Of a stretch of 64,000 nucleotides of DNA, positions 1-54,100 are shown one piece after another. Position 1 is the stretch's first letter. Every line of letters begins with the position of its first letter. The position numbers and the translations under genes were made by a program. The stretch spans positions 28,569,953 to 28,633,952 of the forward strand of contig NC_036445.1 in NCBI RefSeq assembly GCF_002775205.1. The letters run 5' to 3'. This DNA is from Xiphophorus maculatus. Taxonomy: Eukaryota > Chordata > Actinopteri > Cyprinodontiformes > Poeciliidae. Below the pieces are notes generated by a model, which was not told the origin of the DNA, did not search any database, and saw only the letters and a list, made by a program, of their open reading frames with translations.

Positions 1-4999
<4,999 letters not shown>

Positions 5000-11720: not shown

Positions 11721-14700
11721 GCCACTCACATCCAGATTCTGCAGGCAGTACCAGCAGAAGGTGTGCTTGCAGCTCTTGCAGAGCATCTGTGCACAGCCCT
11801 GGTTCCTCTCGATGTAAACGCCACACATGGGGCACTGCTTGATGGACGCCTCCGGGTCGCTGCGGAGAACGAGGCGGCGTCGGGCACACAGAGGACCGTT
11901 ATTGTCATAATTAATCAATTAACTGGATAACAGCAACAACAACAACAAAAGGCACATTCTGCATATTTTTTATCTAGCCACTGAAGTATATTAAAAATAC
12001 ATTAGATGATGCAAAAAAAAAAAAAACTCCCCAAAATATTTTGAATCCTTTTTAAAATAAAAACTGTATTTTGTTGCCTAACGTGCAGCAGCGGCTTTCT
12101 TTCAGTGAACGATTGATCAGTTGTAGTAAAGGATGAATCTGGAGCTAAAACAAACTTCTAAGGTCAACATGTGAAAATCTCAGGACTTTCTGCTGGACTG
12201 AACATCAACACAGCGTGTTTCTGAAACACTGATTAATAACTGATTAGCAAAAGTTGATGAATAGATTTTATTTTTTAATTTTTTTTTTTTCCAGAACGTG
12301 AACTGGGTGAAGCTAAAACGATCGCTTGAATTTTATGCAGAACATAATTACATCAAAAGATTTTTTTTTAATCTTAAATGCAAAATGGATATGTTTTTTT
12401 TAACGCTTTGGCTTAATTATCGCTCCAAATATGTTGTTCTTTCAGCAAATTCCCTTTTTTTGAGTCTGCATTCTCCAGTTAACGATGAATCGATCACTAA
12501 ATTAGTTCACAATAATGCCAATAATCGATTCACCACGATTAATCGGTATTCCGTTTTCGGAAACGTGGGGCTTTCTGCACTTCCGTGACAAAAGTGTGAA
12601 CTCTGGATTTCTGGAGGAGTCGGGACTCGCTCTGATTGTTCAGGACGGCGGCAGAATCAGGGAAGGACTTTCAGAGTCCGTCGCTCTGCCGGGTCGGCCA
12701 TTGTTCTGATTACTGTGGATTTAAAAGTTAAAGAGGAAGAAACCTGAGCAGTAGAGCTGTAAAGATATGGGACATAAAAGTAAAACAATGAGGGAGGGGA
12801 GAAACCATGCAGGGGGAATCTTTGGGATATTTTAAAAAATGTAGGAGTTTTACAACAAAGCTTCTAAGTGAAGTATGACATTGTTGAGCTAAACTCTGTG
12901 GGGGAATTTCCTTCACTTTCTTTATCTTCCTCAGCACTCGGCCTTCACTGCAGCCTCTAACTAACCCTGTGGCCTCCAGGCCTCCTCTTCCTCCTCCTCC
13001 TCCCTTTGGCACAGAGACAATGAAATTCCAGTTTAACTCAGTGGTTCCCTGATGACATCAGTCAGGTTGGCACAGCCATAGCAAGGCAGATTATGCAGCT
13101 GTACGCTAGCACACTGAAGGCTCTGCTGAGGAATACCAAGCTATTAATGCTGAGATAATAGATTTATTCAGCACAGGTCCCATCACTGGGCTCAAGGAAA
13201 AACAAATTATCTTTTTAACACTTTCAGTGTGCTGGATATAGCAGTCAGACTTAGCTTAAGTTGTTTTGCATAGACATGCCAACACACTTCACTTTTCGGA
13301 TTTTTCTTTTTCATAATCATGTAATCTCCCACCCATAAAAACACTGCAAATACACAAAATCTTACCAATTATTTTTGATCTAGTTTCTAGCGCAAATATC
13401 TCAGTACACTTGAAATTAGACAAAACTAACTTTCAAGTTACGTTTTCAGAAATACACAGAAGCTTTTATTAAGTCAATAATTCTTGAATGTAGGTAAAAT
13501 AGTACTAAATCATTGGCAGATTATTTCACTTATAACAGGATATTTCCTCATGCTATAAGTGAAATAATCTGGCTGTGGAACTAGACTAAGGAGTTCTTGA
13601 TCTAAATCAATCTCCTACGTCTGTATGTTAGTTTTGTCTTATTTCCAGCATCCTGAGATATTTGCACTAGAACAAGATATAAAAAAAATATTTAGTAAGA
13701 TTTCATGGTTTTTTGCACAAAATCTTTTTTGCTGATAAATGTCACCAGTTTTTTTCTATTAATGATATTAATGTCTGTGTGTGTTTTGGTTTGTCCACTT
13801 TCAATGTTGTTTGTCAAAATGTTACGTACTTCACAGATAATCTTGCTGCTATCCCAGAGACGTAGTTTACATGTACAAAACACATTTTCAGTGAATGTTT
13901 CTTTTCTTATTAAAAAGAAAAATAGACATCTGAAAAGTGGGGAGTGCATTGGCATTTCTATGCAGAATAATTTAAAGCTCAGTCACCGAAAGCATTAAAA
14001 GCATCATTTGTTATTTATCAAGATATTTGGGCTAGGAACTAGATTCAAAATAATTACTTGTGTTTTTGCAGTGAACACGTTAAAGTATGTGATTGTAACA
14101 TGACTAAATGTGAAAAAGTTTAGAGGAAGGAAAAACATTGGCAAGGTGCTGGGACGTTTTGAAACTTCTTCTATGAGCAGCTGAAACCAAACCAAGTGAC
14201 TGACCTGCTTTCAGGAGACAGTGGGGGTAGCATCATGGGCTGGCCCTCGGGGCAGGTGTGGCCCTCCAGCCAGGGGCCTCTGCAGCTGGAGCAGAAAACA
14301 ATGTGACAGGCGGGGCAGGCCACGGCGCCGGGCCGGCCCTCGGTGGTCGCCTGCACACTGCACACTGCCTGACATTCAAGCACCGGGCACCACGCTTTGC
14401 TGGGGTCCAGCTTCACACCTGCAGAAACACACGGACAGGAACATAACATGCATAATACACAGAATCAAAAATTCTTTAACATTTTCATCCCCTGTCTTGT
14501 TTCCAAACACATTAACTCAGCTACAGGACGAGCTGCCGCTGTATTTTCTAAATAAATGCAGAACCCAGGAAAAACATGGAGAAAACTGTGGAGACTGCAA
14601 AGAAAGAAACAAAAATCTAAAATAAGAATCACTGAGACTAATATTTGGAGTTGGCATGGCTGCATTCAAATAAAACCTATTTGTAGGGTTCTGTCAGGTT

Positions 14701-20700: not shown

Positions 20701-22280
20701 ATAAACGGCTCTATTTTAGGGAGCAGAAACTGCGTAAAAATAATCGCCGAGTGCGTTTGTTTTGGATCGCTTTTGGAACACCGTCGCTGCCAACACTGCA
20801 GCAAAACAAGAGCGCTCTGAAATTGTATGCGGTAATAACACCCTGTTCTATTTACGGTGCTCTTCAGGAGTTTACGCACACTTACTGCTGAAACCAGAAG
20901 TTTACATACGCCAAATAAAAAGACATGCAGTTAACTCAAACAAGTCGGTTAACCTATAAGACGTTTCTAAAGCCACGACATCATCATCTGGGCGTTTAAG
21001 GAGATAAAAATCATTGTGGATGTAAACTTCTGACTTTAAAGAAATAAATGTCTGAAATATTATTTCTCTCACTGTGAGACATTGAGCAAACAGAAATAAT
21101 TTAGATAATTAGAACTGATCTAAAACAATAGAGGATTGGTCTAATTTAATTTCAGAGAATGAGAGAAAAAAAAGGTAAACGTGTCATTTTATAGGGTGAA
21201 TGTGAACTTCTGGTTTCTACTGTATAAGCACTGATGTCAAATTCATTTGTGATTCTTTAGTCATGCATTTAAACAGTTCTTCGTCAAGGTGAACTGATAA
21301 GAATACACACAGCTTCAGCGACGATAAACACAGTAGATAAAGGTCTGGGTCAGGTTAGGAACTTAATGTGCAGCCTGCTTCCTCTATTCCAAAACCAGGT
21401 TTATTGTGTCCCGCTGTCATACACAACTGAGTTAAAGCTTCAAACTCTACTGCATGGATTATGTTGAAAGTTAATAGAATTTAAATGAACTCCAGCTTTT
21501 TTCAGAAGAAGAGTGTTTTGGATGTGCCGCCTTGACTGTGCTGGAAGATTGTTATTGGCCACAGTGTGTGGTTTCGCTGGAACTTAAAGCTGCAGTATGT
21601 AACTTTTACAGAAATAAGTTTTTTGTTTTTTTTCTATATTTGTTAAAACCGTCGCCATGTCGTGACAGTATGTTACGGACAGATAATCTGTGAAAAGATC
21701 AATCTTCTGCACCTCCTCCCTGAGCTGCTACTGCCGTCTGAAGAAATGCACCATTCCTGACCAAAAACAACCAATCAGAGACAGGAGGAGGGTCTTAGTG
21801 CTGTCAATCAAACTCTGACACGCGTTGCTAAATGTGCTGACGGCGGAGAAACAACTTACCATTGCAGTTTAGTTTTATCCTTGTGTGTATTCTTGAAAAT
21901 CCACAATACATTCAAACAAATGCACCAGATTCTCTTTTCAAATTAATAGAAGTTGGTTCAAATGCATCACTAAAGAAGCAAAGCCAATATGGCAATTATT
22001 AAAAATCTTTGTAAACTTCTGGCCAGAAGCTTGTACGCTGTGAATCCCAGAATCCCTTCCTCAGATCAGCATCTGCCCTGAAGTCGGACATGTCATCGCC
22101 GCTGCTTACCGCTGTACAGAACGTGCACTTGCAGCCCTCCAGCTCCCTGATGACGGCGAGCGGCTGCAGGCTGAGGCACAGCTTGCAGAACACATCCTGG
22201 CTACTCGGGGGACCGGCGGCGGCCATCACTGGTGACGGATCCCTGGCTTCCAGGTGAATGGAGGGACTCCTGTTGGCCAT
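9464..22280 (-). CDS. rnf144b: E3 ubiquitin-protein ligase RNF144B (RBR family), complete
   Basis: RING-between-RING ligase that passes ubiquitin through a catalytic cysteine and is membrane-anchored by a C-terminal helix. Coding exons in order: 22110-22280, 18362-18466, 17159-17219, 14205-14418, 11730-11859, 10970-11059, 9464-9640. Phases agree throughout and give 315 aa (human is about 300). RING1 starts at CKLC (about residue 32) with CKCTFC and CLQQY. The IBR lies in exon 4 ([21 protein letters not shown]). RING2 lies in exon 5 ([19 protein letters not shown]), with the presumed catalytic Cys at residue 206. The last exon carries the transmembrane helix (about 258-286), a Cys-rich turn, then a basic and poly-Ser tail. 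The helix wording [17 protein letters not shown] favours RNF144B over RNF144A. The start sits in an excellent Kozak context (ACCATGG). Confidence 0.95.
9854..10035 (+). repeat. TTAA-type MITE family A, copy 2, truncated
   Basis: Starts TTAAAGGGGCAGAACTATGTATTTTCC and continues through TAGCACAATCA and TAGCACCTTGAAATTGG. The second half is missing. It lies in the last rnf144b intron. Confidence 0.55.
10150..10430 (+). mobile_element. Tc1-like element remnant, 3' part
   Basis: TCAGAATGGTCCAGTCAAAG and GTCCAGACCTAAACCCAATT, then CACACTTTTCAGATTTTATT. These are the catalytic-region and tail wording of the same Tc1 family as at 8305 and 59100. The middle is deleted. Confidence 0.6.
11140..11660 (-). 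repeat. hAT-like dispersed repeat (family H), copy 2
   Basis: The right edge GGGTACTCTACCCACCTCTGG, reverse-complemented, gives the AGAGGTGGGTAGAGTACC start typical of this group. Internal blocks match 7120-7500. It ends within 100 bp of rnf144b exon 5. Confidence 0.45.
11689..11716. repeat. CA repeat beside an rnf144b splice donor
   Basis: About 14 TG units on plus, CA on the transcript. They begin about 14 nt into the intron after the donor of exon 11730-11859. Confidence 0.85.
12050..12570 (+). repeat. hAT-like repeat, partial
   Basis: Shares with 62013-62646 the stretch AACATGTGAAAA.CTCAG..CTTTCTG and the end TCGATTCA.CACGATTAATC, which is typical of fish hAT derivatives. Confidence 0.45.
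13343..13725. repeat. palindromic MITE family C, copy 1
   Basis: Starts CACTGCAAATACACAAAATC and TTACCAATTATTTTT, and ends with the approximate complement (AGATATTTGCACTAGAAC ... TTTTTTGCA). Whole-element inverted symmetry indicates a foldback MITE. A terminal fragment of a second copy lies at 14025-14075. Intronic in rnf144b. Confidence 0.55.
14419..17158. other. rnf144b intron 3
   Basis: AT-rich and noncoding. Apart from MITE family C copy 2 I see no gene, RNA or ordered structure. Confidence 0.5.
15755..15990. repeat. palindromic MITE family C, copy 2, degraded
   Basis: Contains GACAAAACTAACTTACA, CAACAAGATATAGTAGCTTA and AAGATATTTGCACTAGAAGA, as in the copies at 13343 and 40978. Confidence 0.45.
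19190..19650 (+). repeat. dispersed repeat family E, copy 1
   Basis: Contains TTTAAGACCATTTAAGA near its start and GCCAGCTAGCTAGCAAG..., ...GTAGCCTCA and GAGTCACAGAATGCA further in. Parts recur at 51390-51640 and 52605-52690. Confidence 0.4.
20884..21226. mobile_element. non-autonomous Tc1/mariner element (MITE)
   Basis: Left end CTGAAACCAGAAGTTTACAT, right end (complemented) ACAGTAGAAACCAGAAGTTC. An internal direct repeat ATGTAAACTTCTGACTTT lies near 21019-21036. This inverted/direct-repeat layout is typical of Tc1 elements. No transposase remains. TA dinucleotides flank it. Confidence 0.65.
21584..21873 (+). repeat. TTAA-type palindromic MITE family B, internally deleted copy
   Basis: Left end TTAAAGCTGCAGTATGTAAC, right end ACTTACCATTGCAGTTTA. 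The middle has CTACTGCCGTCTGAAGAAA and AGGAGGAGGGTCTTA, shared with copies at 35861 and 53444. Confidence 0.6.
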
Positions 22281-22366
22281 GGTGGGAGGAGGCAGGGTGG
22301 CTCTAGGCCTTCCGCTGGCCTTGATGATGATGATGATGATGATGATGATCTACGGTCGCCATGAAC
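22281..22366 (-). promoter_or_regulatory. rnf144b 5' leader with an oligo-histidine uORF
   Basis: The first coding exon appears to begin at 22366, after the acceptor sequence ttctgcttccag on the minus strand, leaving an 86-nt leader. The leader contains an upstream ATG at 22362. It opens a 19-codon uORF (22303-22362) reading M-A-T-V-D, eight histidines, Q-G-Q-R-K-A, stop. The stop lies 22 nt before the main ATG. The histidines come from a (CAT)n microsatellite. The main ATG has the stronger context, so the uORF could tune translation. Confidence 0.6.

Positions 22367-31080: not shown

Positions 31081-31136
<56 letters not shown>
31079..31136. repeat. (AAT)n microsatellite
   Basis: About 19 AAT units, 400 bp upstream of the RHIM-like gene promoter. 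Confidence 0.95.
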
Positions 31137-31584: not shown

Positions 31585-32977
31585 ATGGGCAGCCCCAGCC
31601 AGCAGAACCCGAGTTCCGCGACTGACAATAATCTGACTAAAATAATAGAAAGAGCACCGACAACTCAGGTAAGGTTACGGCAGCGTCACGGACGCTTAAT
31701 ATGCTTCCCTTGGCATTAAACAACATAAAAGTCAGGTTGTCGACTAAAATAGATGGGTTCCCAACGTACAAACGATTCTAAAAATGTAGTTTGGCTTCTA
31801 TCTATAACTTTAGAGCGATTTTCTATGATATTTTCCAGTGAAGGTAAAGGGGGTTTGGAGGGAGTGCGGGGAATCCCCGTCGCGCGACGTGAAGTTTAGG
31901 AGCGAGCACGAGACTTAAAAACTCGTTTGACTGCCTTTCCTTTGTTTCCAAGGCCGTATGTTAGAAACTCAGATGTATTTGTTGCTCCCTGCTGCAGGTT
32001 ATGACGTTTAAGGGGTTCAGCATGCAGAAACTCTTCCAGGTGATGCAGGCGGTGGCCATGAGAAGCTGCAGCAAAGCCTGCCAGTTCTTCTGCCTTCCTG
32101 CTGTTGAAAAGAGGAACGATTCCCCAGGTAAATAATTAAAGTAGAAAACAAATGTGTGTGTATATATACATACATACATTTGTGGGAATATGGCGACGTG
32201 GAGGCCGAAAAGTTCCAAATCAACATCTGCTTCACTACTGTTGACAGATCAGACGCTTCATCGCAGGGAGGAGAAAAACGCACAAGGTAACCAAGGTTTT
32301 TATTGTTCAGTCTCTGTTTTTACTGTTTTGTAAAAAAAAATCACCTGAAGACTTTTTAAAATACATATAAATTTCTTGTTTTATTTATATTTGAATATAA
32401 ATATAATAGGCTTATATGTGGATTATGTCAAGTAAAGCAGCTGTTGGATGCAAAAAAGTTTCTTCTTCAGTAAATAATGACGTAATTCCGCTGTGGCGTC
32501 ACTCTGGAAAAAATCTACTTCCCGTTTCAGTGTTCTTTCGCTTTTCACTACCTCCACTGACAGATCGACTCACGAGCCCGCCCCCTACCGTTCTCATCAT
32601 CAACATCAGCAACTCCACCATGGTCAACTGCGTCATCGGGGATTCCCACCCCTCCGCAGCGGCTGAGCGGCGGCCTCTGATGGAGGACTCTGAGCAGCAG
32701 AAAGTAGGTGGGTAACAACTGCAGCTCACACTTGTGCATCTTGAGTTATTTATTTTCTCTTTTTTGGCACCTAAACACATCCTGCTCACGTGTTACAGTG
32801 GAGGTGAGCTGCAGTTGCTGCCAAAGCCTGCAGGAGGCAGCACAGGCCGCTCCTTCAGAGCCTCCCCATCCACTCGCGGCGCACCAGAACATCATCATCC
32901 ACAGCTCGTGCCTCAGCAACGTCATCGTGGGAGACAACAACTACATGCACGTTCAGCAGGACGAACTGCTCGACTAA
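31585..32977 (+). CDS. unrecognised 191-aa protein with a C-terminal RHIM-like motif
   Basis: Five exons: 31585-31668, 31998-32127, 32248-32286, 32564-32707, 32799-32977. All are bounded by GT-AG and in phase, giving 191 aa. The start at 31585 (GTCATGG) is the first ATG after the TATA box. The C-terminus reads IIIHSSCLSNVIVGDNNYMH, then VQQDELLD. The core V-I-V-G-D-N-N-Y-M closely fits the RHIM pattern (I/V)-Q-(I/V)-G-x-x-N-x-(M/L), with Ile in place of Gln, and resembles the end of RIPK3 as I remember it. Exon 4 encodes a weaker copy, LIINISNSTMVNCVIGDSH. RHIMs form amyloid contacts in necroptosis and TRIF/ZBP1 signalling. No kinase, death, TIR or Z-DNA-binding domain is visible. Exon 2 is Cys- and Met-rich (MRSCSKACQFFC). 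A RHIM-only adaptor, or a decoy derived from a ripk-type gene, is the best guess. The gene model is firm and the function is inference. Confidence 0.8.
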
Positions 32978-33745: not shown

Positions 33746-36700
33746 TCACTTCTTCTTCTTCCCTTTCTTCTTCTTGCCTTTCTTCTCCTCTACCTTCTTG
33801 TAGGGGCCGAGGCCTCTGCGGACCATGGTGCCCCTCCAGTAGGCCTGGAGCTGCACAGATCACAACAAGAACATCAGCACACTGAGACCGGTCCGTCTCC
33901 GTGTGCTGTTCCGGTTGGACGCCGTTACCGTTGTGGCGGCTACAGCTTTCTCCTCCAGTTGGCTTTGCAAGTCCTGGTTCTTCTTGTCCTGCAGCACCAC
34001 CCGCTCCATCTCCTTAAACTGAAACCAACCATAATTGGTGATGTGATTTAAAGGTGAGCCGTATGGTAACCGCTCTGCTGTGAGCGCTGCTGCTCACCAT
34101 CCTCCTCATCTCCATCAGCTTGTCTATGTTCAAAGTTCTTTTGCAGCCCAGGTTATCCAGCTTGCTCTGCTTTTCCTGCTGCATCTTCTTGGTTTGCTGC
34201 TTCCACTTGTGCAGCCTCTGTTGAAACTCCTAATCAGAAACATAAAATTATGTCATGTGTAATACTAATAGAGTATTACTATTACTAGTACTACTCTACT
34301 AATAGAGTACTACTATTTTTAGTTAATACTAAAGTACTAATATTAGTAGCAGAACACTTGGTAGTGATTTATCAAATCATATACATGAATTCATGTCTTT
34401 GTTTTTTTGAATATCCCTCTTAGAAACTTCATTAGCCGTCCACGGCAACTATTCCTTGGTTCATACTAATTCATAATTCTGTCTACGCAACAGAAGAAAA
34501 TTACAGTAGCTTCAAACAGGATTTTTTTTAAAAAAACTGGAGAATAAAAAATATGCTGTGGCAAAACATTTGCACCAATGTTTGACACACTTATGCTTAA
34601 GGCAGTATTATGTAAAGTTGAAAAAAAAGTTTTTGAGCTTTACCTCAAGCTACCTCCTCACAGAGCGCCCCCCCCCCTCCCTTCCTTACTCCCCCACTCA
34701 GCTCCTTCAGACTAGCCAGCAGCAACTTGCAATCACCTGGTGGTACTGAGCATCAGCTGAGCTCATTGTAGCAGCTATCTTTCAGTAATAGAGGAGCCAC
34801 GTTGTGACGACTTCCTGAAGGCGGAGCTTCAGAAATAACAGGAGTTTTTAAAGAGACAGAGGCCCAATTTCAAGGTGATAAATTATGAAGGAAGATTTCG
34901 TTAAGTGATATTTGATGCATTTTTATAACTTAGGTTAACATAGTTGATTGTGCTACAAAATCCCACTATGTACTTATTATACCGCCCCTTTAATGGTATC
35001 CAAACATGATTCCCAGTTGGTAGCTTTAAGTTCCAGTACCCACATGTGAAAGTTTAAAGAAGCCCTGGAGTTCTTGCTCCTGGAACAGGTTTTTGCTTTC
35101 CTCAACTAGACTTTGAACCACATGTGAATTGCCCAGCAGTTAGATTAACCCTGCACTCTACATTGACATCTCATTCAGGACGTCACGTTACCAACCTCGT
35201 ACTGAACCTGGAGGAACGTCACAGTCTCCTTGTGAAATCTCGTCTCTTCTTCCATCTGCTTCTGCATAAGCTGAGAGCAAAGGCGAACAAAACTATGAAG
35301 GAGCGAAGTTCTATTTGACAGAGGAGGAAGTTCTGGCACGTATCTCTGGGAGATTGGGGGTGATGTGAAAGAAAGATTGGAGATTGATGTACCTCCAGCT
35401 GGTCCAAAAGTTGAGCCTTCTGCCACGTCTCTTTGACTATTTGTGGGAACAGGACCGTGGTTTTTGTCTTCTTTTTATTCTGCAGTTTCGATGTTTCTTC
35501 TTCCAGGTCATTCAAAAGGAGGTACATTTTCTGTGGGGGAAAAGTTATTGGAAGAGCCGAGAGTCCTGGGAGGCATTTTCTTCGGTTAACACTCACTGAC
35601 CCTTGCATTAGGTAAACTGCTTTTCAACACAAATTGCAACTGAAATGATCATATGCAGAACGGGGAGCATGGATGACTTTGAATGTAAAATGACTGTTGG
35701 TGCCATACGGGCTGCTCTTAGTATTTCACAAACTGAGATTTTCACACACAACCAGAAAACAGTCAGAAGAAGTGAAAATATCAAGTGTTTATACATAAAG
35801 AGGAAGACAATGTGGAATTGGTGCAAAAGAAATATGGCATCAATCTGGCCACTCTGAGTATTAAAGGTGCATATTTTTACACACATATATATATATATAT
35901 TTTTTTTTTTTACTAATATGTAAAAAACATATGTTTTTTTTACATTTTTGTTAAAACTGTTACTAAATTCTGACAGCATAATATGAGTCAGATAATCTGA
36001 AAAGATTGAGTTTCTCCACTTCCTCTCGGTGCTCCTACTGCCGTCTGAAGAAACGCACCACTTCCAGTCAAATAAAACCAGTCAGAACCAGGAGGAGGGT
36101 CTTACCGCTGTCAGTCAATCTCAGGTATGCGCTGCTGAGTGTACTAATGGAGGAGAAACAAGTGGGCGTTGCAGAAAAAATGTTTATCCACCGTCACGGC
36201 TCATGCTAACTAGCGTGGGAACTCATGAAGGAGAGAGTGTGAGTGGTGCATACATGAACGTGATTGACAGCGCTAAAACCCTCCTCCTGGCTCTGATTGG
36301 CTTTTTCTGGCGGAGCTGTGTGTTTCTGTAGTTGGCACTGAGAGAAGGCAGAGGAGCGCGATTTTTTCCGCAGATTATCTGCCTCATATTATTCTGTCAC
36401 GACACGGTGAAAGGTCTAACAAATACATGACGGAGAACTGAGGCAGTTTTCCGCTCTAGTGGTTTTTCCTTTAGGTAAGGCACAAATAATAACTGGACCA
36501 GTGAGCACACGTTAACACCGCTAATCTCTCACGTGGATTTGATCCTTTTTGTCCTCGATTTCCTGCTGTAGTATCAGCAGAGCCTGTTCTCTCTCTTTCC
36601 GCTTTTTTTCATCCTCTCTGGGTGGGGAGACACACCACATAAGATTCACAAAAATAAAACATTTATTCGTGGAAATACTGGCAGCGTTGAACCTTTTCTT

Positions 36701-38404
36701 CCTGGCTGCTTTCTGTGCCTCATCCTCCTCCATGGCCTGAGGAATTGACTCAAAACTCTGGGTGTCCTCCAGCTCACAGCACAGCTTGGTGACGTGATGG
36801 TCGATGAACTGACTGCAGACACAAACAAAACCTATTTAAAGGGGGGAGGAAGGGAGAGACCTGATCCAACATACTTCTAGTTTTTTATTGTTCTGCTAAT
36901 TACTCACCATTCTGCTTTGAGCTGCACCAGCCTGTCTTTCTCCTAAACATGGGCATAAAGAAACGCACGTAAGGAGATATTTTTCATCCAGGAAACCTTC
37001 CCAAACACTAAGGAGGGAAAAGAAATCCAGAGAGCATCAAAAACTATTCAGCTGAAAGGTGATAGTAATCACCATCATGATGGAACTGTCATAAAGAGCA
37101 GATCAGAGCAACACCCAGCTGTTTCTGCAGAAGCGGTTTCTGGCATGTGGGCAGTTGCCCAGGGCTGCCTCTCCTGTAGGGCGGCATGAGCTGCCACATT
37201 ACTAAACTGCGTGCAGTTGAATCTGTAGCCTATTTCTTGCTTGCTTACCTAACAAAGGGTAGGATATTTTTTAATAACAGTTGTGCAATTGAATTTGTGT
37301 TCCAAAATAACTGTCTTATTTTTAAAATTGTAGATTTTAGTCAGCAGTTGTGCAGTCCAGATTAACATGCAACTCTAGTGCGCATGATTTTGCAAATGTT
37401 TAACTATTGGTGCTGTTGTTTTTAACTATATAAATCTTTTGTATTAGTATTGTTTAATTTGAACTGCATGGCATGTAGTATGTTTGTGCCTTGCTACATG
37501 TGTTTAAAGTATCACTCTAGTTTCACTATTGAGAAAAAAAAAAGAAAAAATTAAAAGAAATCTGTGTCCATGATGGTACATGATAATCTAAATCAAGGGA
37601 GTCAAACTCATTTTTGATCTGAGCCAAATCAAGGTCATGAATGCTCTTAAAGGGCCGGTTGTGCCAGAATGCGTTGATAAAAGCAGTTCACAAATTGTTA
37701 AAATATCAATGAATTCTTAAAATTAAATAATGTCTTTGGACATCTTTTCAGTCCCTCCAAGATTTCGTGTTTGTGGTACTAATTTAGAAATATTTGCAAT
37801 ATTTGCACTTATTTATGATGATAAAAGCAACTTTTTATTACTCTCTGTATAGATCATGGACTGCAATCTGACATCAATTAAAGCAGAGGCAGCTGTTTAG
37901 TGGAAGTAAGAACGTTTTTGACAATTTTTGAGAAAAATCTACAATAAACTCTCAATTATGTATTGGCTCCATAAAGTGAGGGGATTTGCATGAATTTAAT
38001 ATATAGTGAATATAATAGATAGATATAATTTGGCAGGAAAAAGATAAAAACTGCTTTGATTTGATTGATAACATAATATTTAGACACAACTAGTGTTTCG
38101 TCTAAAACCTAGAGGGCCATATAAAAAGCTATGGTGGGCCGGATTTGGCCCACGGACCTTGAGTTTGACACATGTGATCCAAATGCTGCATGGAGCATGT
38201 TGGCCCAGGGCACCGAAGAGGCTAGGACCGGCCCTGGTGTCCTGTTGGGGTGTGAAGCAGTGGTAGGACCTGTGTGGATGTGGAGCCTCGCTCCCTGCTG
38301 ATCTGCACCGACAGGGAATGTCCCAGTAAGTCCAACTGGTGAACGCAGTCTTCCAGTGCAGCCACTGTTCTCAGGCTCTGAATCTTCGATAAGGATAAGG
38401 ACAT
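33746..38404 (-). CDS. iqcg: dynein regulatory complex protein 9 / IQ motif-containing G, complete
   Basis: Subunit of the nexin-dynein regulatory complex in motile axonemes. It binds calmodulin through an IQ motif. Exons in order: 38270-38404, 36908-36942, 36693-36812, 36533-36617, 35393-35530, 35196-35270, 34098-34229, 33929-34018, 33746-33850. Phases agree and give 304 aa. Most of the chain is charged coiled coil (for example ARKKREDEKKRKEREQALL). The C-terminus has the family IQ signature LQAYWRGTMVRRGLGPYKK and a Lys/Gly-rich tail ending in KKGKKKK. The N-terminal exon (KIQSLRTVAALEDCVHQLDL) aligns with the DRC9 segment that contains VLEDTTDQL. Human IQCG is about 440 aa, so this model lacks roughly 130 N-terminal residues. 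Exon 1 is preceded by an acceptor, but the upstream exon I find has no usable in-frame ATG. Confidence 0.92.
34597..34993 (-). repeat. TTAA-type MITE family A, full-length copy
   Basis: Bounded by TTAA on both sides with inverted ends (TTAAGGCAGTATTATGTAAA / TTAAAGGGGCGGTATAATAA). Lies in an iqcg intron. The most complete member in the window. Confidence 0.65.
35861..36435 (+). repeat. TTAA-type palindromic MITE family B, long copy
   Basis: Starts TTAAAGGTGCATATTTTTAC. The halves are inverted copies: CTGACAGC..AATATGAGTCAGATAATCTG on the left mirrors CAGATTATCTGCCTCATATTATTCTGTCA on the right, and GAGGAGGGTCTTACCGCTGTCA mirrors TGACAGCGCTAAAACCCTCCTC. Intronic in iqcg. Confidence 0.65.
37590..38175. 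repeat. hAT-like repeat with GTCAAACTCA termini
   Basis: Left end GGGAGTCAAACTCATTTTTG, right end CTTGAGTTTGACACATGTG, preceded by the fish-repeat wording GGGCCGGATTTGGCCCACGG. Apparently nested in a second repeat spanning about 37140-38236 whose ends contain GCCCAGGGC. Intronic in iqcg. Confidence 0.55.
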
Positions 38405-42148: not shown

Positions 42149-45100
42149 TTAGATTTCGTTGATTGTTCGTTCCGAGGGCCTGTAGCCCTCGGCCCCTTTA
42201 GGGGACGACATGTAGAAGGACTGCGTCTTGCGTTTTAAGCGAGCCCTCTTGGTGGCCAGTGACAGGCTGTGCTTGCTGGAGGCGATGATGTCAGAGATGA
42301 ACTTCTTGCAGTCCACACACACCTCCATGGTGGCCCAGTCCTCCGTTAGCTCGGGGGGCAGCTCCAGTTCCTCGTGAGACTTCAGAGAGCCGTGCTTCGA
42401 GAGCCTGCGGCAAGCAGAGACAGACAAATACCAGGCCTCTGTAGAAAAGCTTATGAGATCATTAAACTACTGGCTTCAGGTGGCTTCAACAGAAACAGTT
42501 AAAACATTCAATAAGTTACAATATGAATGAAAAGTCATCTTATTTTAGGAATTTTGTTACTAATCGAGACACTTGATATAGATTCATTCCTCAGAGATGG
42601 ATGTTTGGAAGCCTATACTTCTATTAAAGGGGCAGTGAAATGTATTTTCCAAGCATATAGTGTCATTTTATAAACAATCAAGTAATGATGTTACATTCAG
42701 GTGTTATAAAAATTCTATATATATCAAATATAATTTACTTTGTAGTTTAATGGCTTGAAACTGGGCCTGTGTCTCTTTAAAAACAGCTTTTGCTGAGACT
42801 CCGCCTTCAGGAAGTGATCACTCCTCTATTAGCCGTTAAACAACGTTTTCAGCAGCGATGCACTAAGAAGTAGCTCCTATAATGAGCTCAGCAGATGTGC
42901 AGTTCCACCAGGTGTTAAAGGTGTTACTAATTGCTGCCGGCTAGTTTGAAGGAGCTAGCCGGCAGCTAGCTCCGGCTAGCCGGACTCTGTGGAGTCACGG
43001 CTGCTCTGTGAGGCGGAAGCTCAGACGCTTTGAAAGAGCAGCTCGGAGGAGGAGCTGCGTCTCGAAGGCGGAGCTCGATCCACCCAGGGTTTATGAGTAG
43101 CTAAATGGTTATCATGGGACATTAAAGGATTTGTCAGACATGCGTGAAATGTGAAAAATGTATAAAATCATTTGCTAAACAAGTACAACAAGGTTTAATT
43201 ATGATTGTTGATTTTGTCTGTAGATATGTTTTAGAAAAATATACAGAAAAAATTCCGTTGTTTGGATTTTGAAAATGCTGTATGTATAAAAAAAAGTGAA
43301 CTTATAATAATCTTATGCTTCCACCTACACTTTTTTCGGCCCACATTTTGCGTTTTGGACACATCTGATTGATTAAAAGCTATTTTTAAAAGCAGTAGTG
43401 TGTACGTTTAATACCTGCTTAAAGGTTATTACTTTTAAAAGATTATTTTACTCTGACAATCTGACAAATACATTCAAATTTATTGAACATTTCTAGACTG
43501 TAATCTTCCAGACTTGCAATTTTTGATTCTCTCCACTAGATGTCAGTGGCCGGCTGTGTGAAGCAGCAAACTGTGAAGCCTCAGCTTGTTGGAAGAAGAC
43601 GCAGCTCAGCTTTGAATTAGAAACACTGAACTGTTTTGTCTTCTCAGCTTCAAAACAGCAACATTCTATTAGCAGTTCTCATATTATTTCTATGTGTATT
43701 TCAATGCAGAATAATTCACTTTTTTCCCGGCAGCAAATGAAGAGTTCTGGAGCTCTTACTTGGACATGGTTTTGTGGATACTGTGGCGCTGTTGGCTCCC
43801 TGACGGTTTGTCAGCCTTGGCAGCTGCAGCTGCTCCCGTAGCTTTCCCAGCTCCTTTAGATGCTGCCTTCGTAGCTCCTTTCAAAGTCGGGGTGGAAGCG
43901 GCCCCTCCCGCTGCCGCTGACGGCCCCGGCCCTCCGGCCACAGAGAGGCCTTGTCCTACGGCAGTCATGGCACTTATTCTGTCTTTGGGCAGAGTGTTGG
44001 TGGATCCGATGGAGTAGATCGGGAGACTGGAATACGGTTTAGATGGAAGCCGCATCTGGTGGAAATTGAAGGCAGAAATGTTATCAGTGGTATATAGTCG
44101 TATTTATGGCGTATGAGGGCCATTGTACATGGAAAAAGTAAATGAGTAAATTTTCACCAAAAAAACTTTTAGATTAATCTCAGAAATTTTCTAGAAAAAA
44201 AAAAGGAAATCTCTGAGCTATAAAAGTAGAAAAACTGCAAGAAAAGAACTCAGAAATGTTGAGATTAATCCCAGAAATTATCTGGAAAAAAGGAAATTTC
44301 TGAGCTTTAAACGTTCAAAATCTGATAGAAAGAAATCCTGAAATTTCGAGATTAAAATTTTGGAATTTAGAAAATTCTCTAGCTTTTTCTGTAAAATTTC
44401 TGAGATTGATTTAAAAATATTTTGGTGAAATTTTTACTCCTTTTTTTCCATCTACAATGGCCCTAATGCACCGTCGCATTGACGCCACAGTGAGCTGATT
44501 GGCTGATGGATTCATTCTGTGTGACGTACCTTTTTGCAGCACTGTGAGCACACAGGCCTGCAAACAGAAGGTTTGAAACAGAGAAAGACATTAATTATAG
44601 TCAATGCTGCAAAACACGAAGAGACATCCAGCTTGTATAGATTTCTAAATATGAAAAAGTTTACTTTATGCAGAACTGGCAGGTATAGGACCAGGTGAAG
44701 AAGGAAAACCTTTTGGTTCGACAGCAGAAGCAAAGCTGCAATAAAACATGAATGGAATTATTTAGTCCACTGACAACTACAGTACATGTACACTCAACAA
44801 TAGAAAACTATTTTCTGAAGAAAAATGTATAAAGTTGTGAAATAAATACCCATGTTCCCAAGACTTTACATTAATGGGCATAATAATGACATTATCTGGT
44901 CCTCATCAGTTAGCATTGCCATAGTAGATAAATATACAGTTCTTCTCTATATATGGGACTATAACTTAGATTTGGGCATTTATTTCTAAACGCATCACAA
45001 AACCAGGAATAGGTTTTTGTTTTGAAGATCTGGTAGAAATCAGATGATCCTGACTTGTTTCTGCTAAGCGTGGAGTAAACCTCGGCCATATGATTCATTT

Positions 45101-48100
45101 AATGGTACCTTGCCCTTCTTCATGGCGTTGTAGATGTCTTTGTACTGCTGGAACTTCTCCAGCTCTGCTTTCACCAGCACCTGTCTGATATGCATCACTT
45201 CCTCCACCGTCAGAGACAGACACTCCACGGGGAAACAAAACTCCTCCTGCAAAACACCCCCCAACAAAACAACACGCTTATTTAAACCCAAACACTTCAA
45301 AACTAAAGGCAAAATCATAACCGTTTTTTTTAACCCTGTCTATATCACATCAGCCTTTAAAGAACCATTAAAAAATGCATTTATACTTTGTGATATCCAA
45401 ATGGTGGGCTGCACAGTGGAGCAGTTGGTAGCCCTGTTGCCTTGCAGCAAGAAGGTCCTGGGTTCAATTACCAGCCAGGGGTCTTTCTGCAAGGAGTTAG
45501 CATGTTCTCCCTGTGCATGAGTGGGTTCTCTCCGGGTACTCCGGCTTCCTCCCACAGTCCAAAAACATGACTGTTAGGTTAATTGGTCTCTCTAAATTCT
45601 CCCTAGGTGTGAGTGTGTGTATGCATGGTTGTGTATCCTGTCTGTTTCTGTGTTGCCTTGTGACAGACTAGATGTGACAGCACTTGATATTCCAGAAACT
45701 GTTTTAGTATCTACTTGCACTAAGTTTAGAAAAGCCACAAAGTCCGTAACCCTGGTTAGTAACTTTAGGCCATGGCAGAAGTTTGCTGTTACTGTTGATA
45801 AATGGAGCCTAAAGAAGTATTAGGAGATGATAGCAGGGCTACAGTGGTAGCACCAGGATTGACTGAGAGGAGACTGGCAAACCTTAAGTGATTCCCTTCG
45901 TCTGATGCAAACACTTCTGCACAGAACAAAAAGCACCTTGACCAAACCCAACAGAAATGCCTCAGCGGGGTGGGAGCTCTGCAAAGAATAGAGAGCTGGG
46001 GGAGACGGGTGGAGGAGGAGAAGCAGGAGGGAAGTGATCCAGGAAGGATGCGAGGCTGTCGCCCCGACGGTCTGAATGTGAAGACGGATGAGGTGTTTGT
46101 GGGGAAAAAGGAGAACAGAGCAGCTGGATTGAGTAACTGATTGTACTTTACTGAAAGGGTGACCAAAGGAGAGAGCTAAAATGAAAACGGTGATCTATTT
46201 AACTTTCAAACCAAAGCAAGATGCAGTTAACTTCTTTAAAGTTTTCTTTTTGGTTATTCTTTCACATAATTTCCAATTTTCACAAATCAAATGTGTGCAA
46301 ATCTTTGTCGATATTCTGCTACTGTAAAAAAAACAACACAACTTCCCAACTGTGGTGTTTCCAATAAATAAGAAATGAAATTAAAATCACACGTGAAAAT
46401 GCTTGTTCATGCGACAAGTCACAAAAATCATGGCAGTAACAGATGTAAACAGTTACATGAGATATATTCATATTTCATCCATGGCACTAGAACTCATCAT
46501 CTATCAGAGCTCTGGTGGAACCAGCCGCAAACTGTCCAGGAAAAAAAACACAAAACCATCATCCTCCTACCGCCACTTCCTGTCGTCTTCTTTGTTGTCT
46601 TTGCCAGTAGTAACATCCGGCTGTTGATCATGTGACTCATGTCATGCGAAAACTGCGCTTCCATTCCAGTTTTGCGAAATACTCCAATTTTGATACGGCT
46701 GAAAAACCACGTCATCCTATCAAAAATTGTGAGTTCTTTTTTAAATTGGCGCTTTTCTGCTAAGCAAATTTATTTTCACAATTTAAATTTGGGCACTTAA
46801 TCAATAGAAAGGCAGCTAGTGTTTCAGACGCCATTTCACAGTTTAGGAGTGAATGAATGCGGGGATCTCACTCACCAGAGACTTGGAGTTCTGCTTGGAC
46901 GGCGGCTGAAACTGTCGGACGCTGGTGGGCGTTTCCTTCTCGATGGAGTGTCTCCTCTGGGGGGTCTGACGCCTCTCTGGCTGAGGTGTGGAGGAGATGG
47001 GCAGGAACATGGGAGGGGCTGGTGTAAGAAAGGACAGACAACATATGAGGAAACGTCAATCAGAAATTATTTTTGAACTGATGAGAAGTTAACACCCTAC
47101 CTGCGGTAGAGAACTCTGCTGGCATCTTTAGTGTGAATTCAGGTTAGTTGAACCCAAAGGCTAAAGCTAACATTTGGCTTAAGGAGACCCAAAGCAGACT
47201 TCTAACTTCTCGAAACATTGATGTACTTTACTGTGTCCTTAACAAGCATGTGACTTATTAATAATAATTATGGTTCAACTGAACATCAGCCTTCCACTCA
47301 GATTTATGCAGTTTTCACAACAACCTCATAGGGGGCAACAATGTAGTGTTCTACTGTATTTAACAGAGGAAGAGAAGAAGAAAATAATGGAAATGAAAGA
47401 ATCAAGCAATTTTTCAACAGTTTTGGGGTTTTAGTTCTCCCTGAAATATTGATAATCAACACTGGGAAAACAGCAGAGCTTAGCCAGATGTATTTCTCTG
47501 AAAACAAATAGTGATGCATGATACAGTGGCATCGACATTGGTAGGGGCTGATGTTAGTTTTTTTTTTTTTTTAACATATAGGTATTGGTCCAATGAGTAA
47601 AGCTGGTCCAATAAAATAAAAATTCATAACTCTCCAGAGGGTTCTGTATCTCAGAGCTTAATTAATATTTTTGAAGAGACCATTTTGTTTACAGAGTCAT
47701 CATAATCCATTTGAATGGTTTTGGTTGTGTGTGATTTTTATTTTCACTTTATTTGTTGTTTTGTTTTTGGCTATTGTGTTTTATTTTGGATAATTAAAAT
47801 ATGTCACACTTCCATTGTAGAGTGTCCTGTGCAAAATTAAAGTTTATTATTCTTGCAAACTTGAATTACTAAGCCGTTATAAATATATTACTTGAAAATG
47901 GTCTCAAAACGGCAATATTATCGTTTACCGCAATAATTACCGGGACAATTTATCGTCCAGCAGAATTCGAATGCCTGATGCAGGAAATACAATACCTTAC
48001 CAACTATTGCATCTAAGCGGTGCAGTGATGTCACAATTGTGATTTAGCTCTAATTTATAATCAATTAATTGAGTAAGACATTGACTGCTCATAACGTTTC

Positions 48101-51100
48101 ACCAGAACCTCACTTTAATAGTCCTGAACTATTCCTTTAACCAAAGAACAAAAAAATCCCACATTACATAAACTCTGAGTCATGTCATGACTCAGTCATG
48201 GCAAGGTTGTTAGATTAAATCTCACTTGTTGCTATCAGGTAAATGTTTTTATTAAAACAGCCAATTCAGCTCTGATGAAAGGTGAAAAACCTTTCACCTT
48301 CTTGACTCACTTTTCTTTCCCAGTGCAGACTCTGGGGACGTATCATCCATCAAAGACGTTGCCACGCTGGAGTTGCTTGCCGATGTGCGCCCGACCCACT
48401 CGTCCTGAATACACAAATGTTACCATGCCCTGCACTCGTCTTTTTGCTTCTGAAAGGTGAAGCTTAAAAACAAAAAACAACTTACATCAGAGTCGGAGCT
48501 GTCCAGCTCAGCCAGGCTGGGCGCCTTCAGGAGTTTCTTCCTCTGAGGGACGGACTGAGATCCGGAGGGCTCTACTCTGGGAGAGCGTGACCCGTTGGTC
48601 AGAGACAGAGTACTGGACGTCCTCCTGCCCATGTACGGACTGAACTCATCTGCACAGAGCCACGCAGGAGGCAGTCACTCGACAGGAAGGGAAAGCAGAT
48701 CAAATGGATCTCGACCCGCCTCCTCCTGTGCTCCGTTGCATCCTCATTGGGTTTTACGCCGGATCTTTAAATTGGTTTTCTCTTCTTTTCTCCTCCCTTG
48801 CCCCCATTTATAAAATGGCAACCAGATCCGTCTGAGTGAAAGGATGGAATTTAATCTGCCACAGAGGACCAGGGTTGGAGATCCATTTGAGGGTGGAGGA
48901 GTTTGGGAGTTATGCGGAGGAGGTTCAAAGGAGAACGTAGAAAACGCAGACAGGTTAAATGAAGTATTTAGATTATCTATGACTTCCTTTTATTTACCAC
49001 TAACTCTGATAATATTTATCTTTTTGTGTGAACTACGTCCTCAAATGTAAGGCCTTACTTTATATTGACCAAACTGGAACTGGGATGAGAGCAGAATATT
49101 TAAAGCAAAGGACAAAACCTTCACAAAGTTTAGTAGAAAACGAGGAGCGTAAGAGGAGGAGGTGCAGGAGTACAAGCCTCTCTAAAACCCAACATTTCTA
49201 AGAAAAAAAAAAAAATCAAACAAGACTTTTAAGTGATTTACTCAGACATCATTTTGCATTCTGCATAGCTCTTTCAGCTCCCAGCAGTTGAGTTTTTCTT
49301 TTTTTTTTCTTTTTTTTGGGAGACGTTAGTTTGCAGCCAGGGAGGGGAGACAGAAAAGGCCAAAAGATTAAAGCCAAACAAGGTTGTTCAAACCGCAGCA
49401 CTGCTGATACGTTACCTACTCCTGTACGGAACAAATCCTGAGGCATACTGCGAGTTTTGCCAAAACCTAAAAGGTAGACACCTCTCTTATTAGAGCAGCA
49501 CAGAGAACATAATGCAACTAAACCATTAACTGCATCCAAACAATCCATATTCTCAAATATCAGCGGTACCTTCTCAGCTAAACAGTTTAACACTTTTTAA
49601 GCCTTTCTCTTCCCTGTTCCTGATTGAGGGATTTCCAACCTGTTTTCTTTGAACTTTTCTAATATATCACATCAATCTTTCATTTGTGGCTTGCATTGCA
49701 AGTTTGGTTTGAAGAAGTAAAAAGCATGATATCGACCGATACCGATCGGACACAAAAAAAACCCAGCTGAATTGACTTAAAATGTTTCTTTCTTCGAAGT
49801 ACAGACATAAATGTACAGAATTAGTCATTTATTTGATTACTCTGCAGCACATTTAAATACACCAGCAGCTTCACAAGCTGGCTCAAACATGTAGAAAACC
49901 CCCCACAACTTTCATTTGTTCAGTCAGTGTAACTAGCAGTGTAACAGCTAATGTAAAATAAATAATAAAGAAACTGAAACTGACAAAAATAATAGGTTGA
50001 CTGTTTTGGTCAAACATATAGAAATAAACCGCAACAAACCTTTTTTTTTCAAATAGTTTAGAAAATGTATTTATATTCTAAATAATGTAACATAAATAAT
50101 GATGATGTGGCTCGGAGCGCAAAGCATAGAATTAGACTGACTAGATCTGCACTTATGGTTCTGGAACTTTGTCCCCGAGAGCCGATCTGGAATTCTTTTT
50201 CAATATCTGGACCAATACAGATATTAACATTGCATCTCTAGAACACAGTGGACTCAATCTGTCATTACTGCTAAATCATTACAGACGAATGACTGTACAC
50301 ACAACAACACACACGGATCACCAGAAAACATAAATGTCAGAGGGTTGGACTTAAAGACTGTGGTATGATGAGGGACACTGACATCAGTAGGAGGCAACAT
50401 GGACCACAGCATCATACTGCCTCTGCAGTCATTTCAGATTGTACATTAGAGGTTACCATGGCAGCATGTGGTTCACAGTGGTGTGACACTTTTACACATC
50501 ATGGACCAGATCTTTGAGAAGAACCCTTCTGGTTAAATATCTGCCTGTCTCAACATGGCACAGTTCTAAAAACCAGCATTCACTGAGGTATTAATAGTGT
50601 TCATCACAAAGCAGTGACATTATTCATATCATTCGACTTGACTATACTTTTCCTTGTGAATAACTCAGTCCCTGAGCTGTGATTTTCTTTTAAAAGCTCC
50701 AGAGTAGTAACAGATCTTTAAATGTCCCAGACTGCCTGCAAGGCAAAACGATCTGTTCCAACCAGCCAGAGAGCCGGGCTTAATCTCCTCCTTTGGGACG
50801 ACGCCGTTTTAATGAGAAATAGGGGAATCCCTTCTCTTAGAAATTGGAAAAAAAAAGAGAGAGCACGCAGCAAATCTTTAAAAACAGATTTGATGATGCA
50901 ACAGATATTGTTTTTGTTTTTTTTTCTTCTTCTTGGTGACGTTGGGATTAAGATACAGAGATTTTTCCAGGTCAAAAATATTTCTCATAAGCTGAAATAA
51001 AATCAAATGATCCTTCAAAATATGGTTTCTAATAAGAAAAATGTATGTTCAATTTTATGTAAGTGGCTCCCAACATTGATTTTGGTCTGTTGAAAAAATA

Positions 51101-54100
51101 GATTAAATAAATAATATTTATTTAATTAAAATTTTAAATATTATAAACATTCAAATATTGCTTCTTTTTTTTTTGGTGTGGTAGTAAATTTATTAATCTG
51201 GGACCTGAGTCCTAATTTTGTAACACAAACAAGCAAGGTGGTATGACAATAAAAAATCCTTTAATCCTTGAATCCTTGAAAATAAAATGGCACTGCTGGT
51301 GAGATTAGCTAAAAATCTTGATACATTCTTACTTTAGTCGAAGACATTAATTGCAGTTCCTCTTTTTAATCCTTTTCCCTTTTGTCATCCATATATCTGT
51401 GATAGACGCAAAAAAGCTGGCTAGCTAGCAAGGGTACACTAGCATCTAGTTAGCGGTAACCTCATCCGCTTCAAGTCACAGAACGCAATGAAAATGTCTA
51501 TGTGCAACTCAAACTTTTGCTTGAAATAAAAAAAAATACTATATGTAAGATATGACTAAATAGTTCTGCCTCAACACAAATTAAAGTCATGTGATTAATG
51601 TTTTTAAAGTCAACTTGCTTGCAAATTTCATGGCAATATATGTATGTAAAGGCAAGCCTCAGAATAAATGAAGTACATAAATATAATTATCCCTCTTCTT
51701 TGTATTTTGTATTCTGTAATCCAGTTTGTGAGTGGTGTCTTAGGCCCTTTAGTTGCTAAGCTACACACAGTTTCCACCAGCTACTCTGTAACTTGCTTTT
51801 TGCTGCAAGAAATGTGGGTTTTATAACATTTTTTTCTAGCAAACCTTTTAAAAACAAGTCCCAGAGCCCCATTTAGTGTCATTAAAATTTGTTTCAGTGT
51901 TTGTTCCCCTAAGGATCCTCTTGCTGATCAGTGTCCCACTTAGCAACAGCTAACCACCACACAGAAGCATGACATGGAATGTGTGCACAGTCAGTACTGA
52001 GCATGTGTGTGTGTGTCTGTGTGTCTCTGCATGTGTGAGCTGATAAAGCAGATGAACAGCCACAGCACGGTGGAGGAAATGAGATAAAAAGCCAGGTAAG
52101 CAGCAAAGGGAAACGTTACCTGACGCATCAAAACTGAAAGACATGCTAAGAGGCCGAATTACTGCAACGAGAAACAGTCACGGTGCGGGGCGGTTACTGC
52201 ATGTTAAAGCAGGACTTAACTCACACAAGAGAAAGCAAACGGCTTCTTTCTGGCTAATAATATTAATAGGGATATTAACAGCTTTCACATCAAAACAGAT
52301 ATTTTCTCTTTTGTGATGGATTTTGTCCGACAGATTCCTGGTAGCTGTGTCCGCCTGTGGGAGCCAGCAAAACTTACCCAAGTCTGCCCAAGTCTTAACC
52401 ACTATTTTTTTAAAAGCTTTGATCCACCAATTTTGCTTGCAGTGATTGCCTGAAAATATTGCACAGCAAAATAGTAAGTTGGAGGTATAATCAATCTGTT
52501 TCATTACTTTATTTTTTAATTATTCTTTTTAACCACAGTTCAAAAGTAACGTATGATTTTCATTGGTTAATTTTTAGAACATTTTTATTCATTGCCATCA
52601 AAGCTGCATCTGTGATAGACGCAAACAAACCTAGCTCGCTAGCTAGCAAGGGTATATTAGTAGCTAGGTAGCAGTAGCCTCAAGTGATTTCAGCAACCAT
52701 TTCGGGCTTTTTGGTCATACTAACAATTTTGACAGCAGGTGTAAAGGGGCATAGCATCTGACCTGAATGTCGTCTGCTCAGCCTTCCTGTTATCTGCTGA
52801 ACTCTGTCTCAATTGGGCTTTAGCGGCTTCCTCTGAATTCATTCTTAAACTCATTTCTTAGTAATTTAGGCTAACTTTAAGTCTTCTTTCCTCACCAAAA
52901 GTGTTGCTAGCTGTTGTGATACGTTCACTTATTTGTAAAAGGACAATTTTTTTTTGGTTGTGGAACTAAATCAGGTTGAAAATTGCGTGACTGAGTCATC
53001 AGACAATGTCTGGATCATTTCTTTGTTTTTACTTCTGGTCTTTATGAGGTCTATGATGTTGGCGCTACCTTAACCCCTTCAGAACAAAATGCCTCTGTTA
53101 TTTACAAATAATACAACAGTTTCTAAGACTTTGAGTTTTGAATGTTAGACTTGAATATTCTTAATGCTCTTGCAAAATTAAAGGTATAAGCCTCATTGAA
53201 GGAAAGGCTAGCTGGTCTCATTATAGACCAGCTGGTCTTATTAGCCACAGACCAGAAACAAACTGCTAACACGTGTAAAGTATTTACCTTATGGAACAAT
53301 AAGGAAGGCTTGATGCAGCACTGTTTTTTTCAGCATGTGGCTACACATAAGAGCAGACACAGTAACTATGAATTTGTCTTTATGATTAAAACAAAGACAC
53401 TCAGCATTATTTCCTGTCCCACCTTCATCCTACGGCAAACTGTTTAAATCTGCAGTATGTAACTTTTATTTTTTTTTAAATTAGATATATATTTGTTGAA
53501 ACTGTCTCTATTGTGTGACAGTATATTATGGGACAGATAATCTGTGAAAAAATTGAGCTCCTCCTTGTGAATGCTAAAGCTAGTTAGCATGACCACAGAT
53601 GACGGCAGATAAACGCTTTTTCTGTAAAGGTGAGTTGTTTCTCTGCCATTAGCACATGTAGCAGCGTATTCACAAGGTTGATTGACAGCGCTAAGACCCT
53701 CCTCCTAATTCTGATTGGTCTGCATTTCTTCAGACGGCAGCGGTAGCACAGGAAGCAGGTGGAAGAGATCAATCTTTTCACAGGTTATCTGTCTCATACT
53801 ACACTGTCACATCAAGGTGACATTTTTAACAAATATGTAAAAAACATATATTTTTAATAAAAGTTACATATTGCAGCTTTAATGCAGAGAACATTAATAG
53901 GCATCAGCAGCCACACAGACATAAAAGGTTAGGAAGCAGTGGCTACAACAGCAAAGAGCAGAGAGGAACATTAGTGATATAGAGCACAAAATGAACTGAA
54001 ATAGCTCCAAGCAATAAGGCCAAAGCGCACTGCATGTGATCAGCTTAAACATTTTAATGTGAACTACAGTATATTTATATGGTGTGTGGAGTGTGCATGT

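Follow-up and report, generated by a model that had tools for sequence, protein, structure and literature searches.

A small fish gene predicted to encode a protein with a RIPK3-like, RHIM-like stretch near its C-terminus

Introduction

Four human proteins are described as carrying a RHIM (PMC12119088, PMC9444067). The published consensus of the RHIM tetrad is (V/I)-Q-(V/I/L/C)-G (PMC9444067); in human RIPK3 the tetrad is VQVG (PMC10825024), and the RHIM of this protein forms S-shaped layers with the tetrad at their centre (PMC9444067). Two residues of human RIPK3 lying outside the tetrad, N464 and M468, are reported to be required for inter-filament assembly (PMC7853141). The tetrads named for fish RIPK3, i.e. 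VQFG, LQIG, VQSG and CQIG, all retain the Gln (PMC12119088), VQSG being that of flounder RIPK3 (PMC10825024). Since flounder RIPK1 and RIPK3 need their RHIM to activate MLKL (PMC10825024), fish RHIMs signal. ZBP1 is reported to be missing in every fish species examined (PMC12119088). The RHIM has relatives among short amyloid signalling motifs, i.e. the fungal PP, the bacterial BASS3 and those of flies, which are found in varied architectures (PMC7889193).

Gene structure

The window analysed here, a stretch of 64,000 nucleotides (64 kb) from Xiphophorus maculatus, contains at positions 31585-32977 of the + strand a gene of five exons forming one open frame, all with GT-AG borders as read from the sequence (Table 1). 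A five-exon gene had been claimed in an earlier note on this DNA, and the GT-AG exons, the open frame and the coding-like base pattern bear that claim out; the 191 residues given there have to be corrected, however, as the five-exon model yields a predicted protein of 202 amino acids (189 if exon 3 is skipped). The GC content by codon position is 0.55/0.42/0.69, and that of the exons ranges from 0.50 to 0.59 versus 0.30 to 0.44 in the introns. By its open exons, its coding-like base pattern and its terminal signals, the gene is complete-looking and is regarded as real; it may already be present in public records as uncharacterised. The pattern for kappaB sites has six + strand matches in the window, two of them overlapping at the palindrome in intron 1 and one lying in exon 4. 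A perfect (AAT)18.7 microsatellite is located at window positions 31081-31136, approximately 400 bp 5' of the TATA-like box.

Table 1. Features of the RHIM-like gene and the RIPK3-like RHIM of the same genome. Positions are those of the window unless another sequence is named.
Feature	Position	Strand	Remarks
TATA-like box TATATAA	31529-31535	+	56 bp 5' of ATG; from pattern scan
Exon 1	31585-31668	+	G at both -3 and +4 of the start codon; donor CAG/gtaagg
kappaB-like palindrome GGGGAATCCCC	31868-31878	+	Intron 1; consensus match only
Exon 2	31998-32127	+	43 codons + 1 base; rich in Phe, Met and Cys; no domain above cut-off
Exon 3	32248-32286	+	39 nt, phase 1-1; skipping keeps the frame
Exon 4	32531-32707	+	177 nt, phase 1-1
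Possible degenerate first RHIM-like unit VLIINISNSTMVNCVIGDSHPS	32590-32655	+	Exon 4; tetrad place CVIG; tentative
Exon 5	32799-32977	+	Terminal; phase 1 to stop TAA
RHIM-like unit NIIIHSSCLSNVIVGDNNYMHVQQ	32888-32959	+	Tetrad place VIVG
Poly-A signal AATAAA	33656-33661	+	Putative 3' UTR of ~680 nt before the signal
RIPK3-like RHIM	L062 6281-6460 (C14)		Tetrad LQYG (Gln kept)

Domains and relatives of the predicted protein

The Pfam scan of the 202 residues gave no domain above cut-off and, among the families looked for, no kinase, death, TIR or Z-DNA-binding/Zalpha match, in line with the earlier note, which had seen no kinase, TIR or Z-DNA-binding domain; the first 84 residues likewise had nothing above the Pfam cut-off. 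An OSCP1 match across exons 1-3 (E 0.058, 13.8 bits with a cut-off of 25) was rejected as due to chance and a PHROG match (E 0.41) was also taken as such. No match was obtained with the whole protein in the PDB up to E 10. The protein search of its own genome (704,300,149 bases in 101 contigs) returned seven matches, of which only those to the gene's own exons were below E 1, the next one having an E of 1.19; no second copy was found. At the DNA level, a genome-wide search for the pattern GTGGGNGAYAAYAAYTAY gave a single site (control 0). In collections where a fish orthologue is not expected, two stretches from viral contigs and 22 from prokaryote genome contigs fitted the peptide pattern, none of them being confirmed.

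The RHIM-like stretch in exon 5

Near its C-terminus the predicted protein contains IIHSSCLSNVIVGDNNYMHVQQ, which is followed by DELLD. The sequence SNVIVGDNNYMHVQQ is encoded in frame in exon 5 (32915-32959, + strand), and these five residues precede the stop codon. The protein end reported in the earlier note is thus encoded in frame in the last exon, as claimed, and has only to be extended by DELLD. The comparison of the C-terminal 35 residues with 177,635 distinct PDB sequences revealed, up to E 10, two matches, both to the RHIM of RIPK3 and both weak, with E-values above 1 (1.3 and 1.8); the aligned segments are lsnVivGDNNYmhvQQde in exon 5 and csgVqvGDNNYltmQQtt in RIPK3. The reversed peptide had no PDB match. 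As a yardstick, the RIPK1 RHIM of the same genome matched seven PDB sequences with E-values from 0.056 to 1.3, namely three of RIPK1, three of RIPK3 and one ribonucleotide reductase-like chain that we take to be viral.

The stretch was also scored without gaps (BLOSUM62) against RHIM cores, with shuffles of the window protein as the control. Versus the human RIPK3 core, i.e. the one with the VQVG tetrad, it scored 43, a value reached by none of 10,000 shuffles; this and the PDB search, whose only matches are RIPK3, agree with the closeness to the RIPK3 core proposed in the earlier note. The score was again 43 versus the RIPK3-like core of the same genome, NIHCSSVTGLQYGNNNTMHI (8/20 identical; 0/10,000 shuffles), and 41 versus a 23-residue version of that core (0/10,000). 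Lower scores were obtained with the RIPK1 peptide from the PDB (27; 14/10,000) and with the fish RIPK1 core (24; 95/10,000). Both RIPK3 cores, human and fish, match the stretch with the tetrad in one register. Inspection by eye indicated that exon 5 and the fish RIPK3-like core have in common I-H, six residues, the tetrad and then M-H. The residues DNNYM following the tetrad in exon 5 fit (D/N)-x-N-x-(M/L), a flank pattern that is our own reading of four aligned sequences, the other RHIMs having DNNYL, NNNTM and NHNYM. In our alignment the positions of N464 and M468 of human RIPK3 are occupied by Asn and Val, respectively.

The tetrad itself reads VIVG, with Ile at the usual place of Gln, as the earlier note had pointed out, and therefore deviates from the RHIM consensus, as does the CVIG at the tetrad place of exon 4. 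Furthermore, the Pfam RHIM family PF12721 (curated cut-off 20 bits) had no match in the whole protein, in exons 4 and 5 or in the C-terminal 35 residues, so that the RHIM-profile search proposed in the earlier note came out negative. A scan of the whole genome with PF12721 identified five places, two of them over the cut-off, and the window stretch was not among the five. Because the tetrad lacks Gln and there is no PF12721 match, the exon 5 stretch is named here RHIM-like and is not filed as a member of the RHIM family. The missing Pfam match is not decisive, however: of the two RHIM exons of this genome used as controls, that of RIPK1 is above the cut-off with 35.9 bits, but the RIPK3-like one matches no family either. 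In the PDB, that RIPK3-like exon had three matches, none of them a RHIM. The sequence comparisons support a small protein in which no kinase, TIR or Z-DNA-binding domain can be recognised and which has a RIPK3-like RHIM near the C-terminus.

RIPK1-like and RIPK3-like genes of the same genome

Searching the genome with RIPK1 kinase exons gave 52 matches at 30 loci, and with the human RIPK3 kinase domain as query there were 99 matches at 14 loci. RIPK1 was found on contig C6, with a RHIM and, as judged by eye, a death-domain-like exon. RIPK3-like kinase exons are present on contig C14 (L060 and L062), and an exon with FNIHCSSVTGLQYGNNNTMHI follows approximately 6 kb further on. From order, strand and motif we infer that these exons on C14 all belong to one RIPK3 gene, which has a mobile element between its kinase and RHIM parts. 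LINE-like frames, with endonuclease-like and RNase H-like parts recognised by eye, occupy L062 730-3627 between the kinase and RHIM exons. Two other loci were rejected as RIPK3, one on C2 (L045) being RIPK2-like by eye with a best core score of 25, and one on C18 (L061) carrying ankyrin repeats.

In a 19-column comparison the core of the fish RIPK3-like RHIM scored 25 versus human RIPK3, 32 versus the window core and 45 versus fish RIPK1. By this measure, the window stretch, with its score of 43, is nearer to human RIPK3 than the fish RIPK3-like RHIM is, the latter being nearest to the core of fish RIPK1. With regard to exon structure, little weight is given to the phase of 1-1 that the RIPK1 RHIM exon (138 nt) shares with exon 4 of the window gene. 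The exon with the RIPK3-like RHIM has phase 0 at its start and extends to a stop codon, as exon 5 does. Since the RIPK3-like RHIM with LQYG is missed by the Pfam model, surveys based on Pfam may undercount fish RHIMs.

Chance expectation

None of the other stop-free stretches in the six frames of the window reaches a score of 28 versus any of the three cores. In simulated DNA with the dinucleotide make-up of the window (310 Mb for the cores, 472 Mb for the profile), seven sites scored at least 43 with the human RIPK3 core, i.e. 0.0015 per 64 kb (0.0032 from the fitted tail), and 19 with the fish RIPK3 core, i.e. 0.004 per 64 kb (0.0075 from the fitted tail). With a profile made from four RHIMs the exon 5 stretch scored 29.75, the next best in the window being 16.25, and the simulated DNA contained 37 sites of at least 30 and 124 of at least 28 (0.005 to 0.017 per 64 kb); the profile scores of fish RIPK1 (60.25) and RIPK3 (51.0) are circular, as both helped to build the profile. 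All these rates apply per window, with no correction for the use of several cores or for the way in which the motif was chosen. In 704 Mb they correspond to approximately 16 chance sites with the human core, 43 with the fish RIPK3 core and 55 with the profile at 30; the fitted tails raise the first two figures to 35 and 83, respectively. With tens of chance sites per 704 Mb, the match counts mainly by its place, i.e. in frame, in a true-looking exon and near the C-terminus.

Possible second unit in exon 4

A part of exon 4 resembles the exon 5 unit, with 6/22 residues identical when aligned without gaps. In the register chosen by eye the resemblance was equalled by 86/20,000 shuffles, in a free ungapped comparison by 21/1,500 and in a gapped one by 11/2,000, all three values being uncorrected. 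Versus the fish RIPK3-like core the result is marginal (412/10,000 shuffles; 591/10,000 with the longer core). The idea of a full second RHIM in exon 4 was rejected, as its scores versus the human RIPK3 core and the two RIPK1 cores were not above chance (5528, 7262 and 2162 of 10,000 shuffles, respectively) and the unit had no PDB match. Tentatively, exon 4 may be considered as a possible degenerate repeat of the exon 5 unit.

Comparison with described systems

Among the closest described systems is RIPK3, with which the window protein shares the core VxVGDNNY(L/M)xxxQQ. In the RIPK3-like RHIM of this genome the tetrad is preceded by an equally long turn, and this RHIM too is located in what is apparently the last coding exon, near the C-terminus. 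Unlike RIPK3, the window protein has no kinase that could be found and contains Ile in place of the tetrad Gln; the RIPK3-like gene on C14 and the window on C3 are, moreover, separate loci. RIPK1 offers a weaker core match together with the phase 1-1 RHIM exon, and differs in its location (C6), in a RHIM exon that matches PF12721, and in the kinase and death domains, neither of which is recognisable in the window protein. The window protein perhaps has more than one RHIM-like unit, resembling by description the tandem RHIMs of ZBP1; unlike ZBP1 and TRIF, it has no Zalpha or TIR domain that could be found. The likeness to the viral decoy RHIMs of VZV ORF20 and MCMV M45, drawn by description, lies only in the proposed mode, by which a RHIM without a kinase joins host filaments (PMC7375649, PMC9444067); those are viral, while the window gene has introns, and no relative turned up among the viral contigs scanned. 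The fungal PP, bacterial BASS3 and fly motifs were also likened by description only.

Proposed role and alternative explanations

The reading we favour, to which we give somewhat less than an even chance, is that of a kinase-free, RHIM-like protein of the host that enters the amyloids of RIPK3 and RIPK1, and does so more likely as a limiter than as an activator. A single-copy gene would give rise to a protein of approximately 202 residues in which neither an enzyme nor a sensor domain is recognisable and whose RHIM-like unit VIVGDNNYM, perhaps aided by a degenerate copy in exon 4, would add onto the RHIM amyloids of RIPK3 and RIPK1 and possibly onto those of TRIF. As no kinase would be brought in, the filaments would be diluted or capped, and NF-kappaB and death signalling thereby limited. 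The kappaB-like site in intron 1, a consensus match only, would fit induction by the same pathway, which would allow feedback. The presence of RIPK1-like and RIPK3-like genes in the same genome was counted in favour of this reading. Amyloid formation, the partners, the limiting role and the inducibility are all what we infer for this protein. On reasoning alone, a limiter is in our view the most likely, ahead of an activator, because a protein that brings no kinase would dilute kinase pairs, as has been proposed for the viral decoys. A further reading, which we consider doubtful, is that some fish, reported to be without ZBP1, have a dedicated host protein composed solely of motifs for RHIM-like assembly and a short, unassigned N-terminus. 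Such a protein would join RIPK3/RIPK1 filaments by a Gln-less tetrad and in this way adjust the strength of NF-kappaB and death signalling, as a host counterpart of viral RHIM decoys.

The same stretch might instead have come about by chance in an unrelated protein, the gene being real and VGDNNYM having some other role. This is rather unlikely, although the tetrad without Gln, the absence of a Pfam match, the PDB E-values above 1 and the tens of equal matches expected in the six frames of 704 Mb would all fit it. It has to be set against the approximately 0.0015 sites expected per 64 kb for the human RIPK3 core, against the position of the stretch, which is read in frame within a true-looking exon and lies close to the C-terminus, like the RHIM of the fish RIPK3-like gene, and against the single register in which the human and fish RIPK3 cores place the tetrad. 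A RIPK3 or RIPK1 copy that is decayed or partial, a fragment without its former kinase exons and on its way out, would explain why the RHIM lies in a terminal exon, as it appears to do in the RIPK3-like gene, and why exon 4 has the 1-1 phase of the RIPK1 RHIM exon. Such a fragment is very improbable, given that all five exons are open, their splice borders are sound, the third-position GC is 0.69 and both a TATA-like box and a poly-A signal are present; besides, only the gene's own exons were found below E 1 in the genome, so no part of the protein resembles RIPK1 or RIPK3 enough to be detected in this way.

If the protein does join the filaments, it could also act as an activating adaptor, i.e. 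as a seed nucleating those of RIPK3 or RIPK1 and taking in fish the part that ZBP1 plays in tetrapods, with the N-terminal exons as sensor or anchor. The reported lack of ZBP1 in fish (PMC12119088) and the possible second RHIM-like unit, which recalls the two RHIMs of ZBP1, would suit such a role, as would the report that human RIPK3 with tetrads other than VQVG retained cell-death activity (PMC12119088). We regard it as unlikely, since no domain of any kind, be it Z-DNA-binding, TIR, kinase or death, was detected above cut-off and the first 84 residues had no Pfam match above cut-off. Those neighbours of the window gene that can be guessed are not known to be neighbours of ZBP1, which also speaks against an activating adaptor.

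A RHIM-like protein of the host that lacks such domains would add a further architecture to the human ones, in which the RHIM is in each case joined to a kinase, a TIR or a Z-nucleic-acid-binding domain (PMC12119088, PMC9444067). It would suggest that vertebrates can make a RHIM decoy or seed of their own, and would provide a natural test of whether RHIM amyloids require the tetrad Gln. Neither the term RHIM-only nor a fish protein of this kind was found in the literature searched.

Other genes in the window

Tail-to-tail with the RHIM-like gene, at window positions 33746-36835 (- strand), there is a coiled-coil-like gene with, by eye, an IQ-motif-like last exon; its stop codon (33746-33748) is approximately 85 bp from the poly-A signal of the RHIM-like gene, and three stretches of it scanned with Pfam gave no match. 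An exon with a FAD-binding domain (Pfam FAD_binding_3, E 1.3e-7) is found at 4195-4635 (- strand) and nearby, and has what we take to be the look of squalene epoxidase. At 14174-14464 and 22002-22349 (- strand) there are an exon with an IBR domain (E 5.8e-8) and another, Cys-rich one to which Pfam has no match; they are perhaps parts of an RBR-type ubiquitin ligase similar to RNF144. The exons at 42152-56172 (- strand), with a weak WH2 match (E 0.27), recall, as we presume, the Spire actin nucleator.
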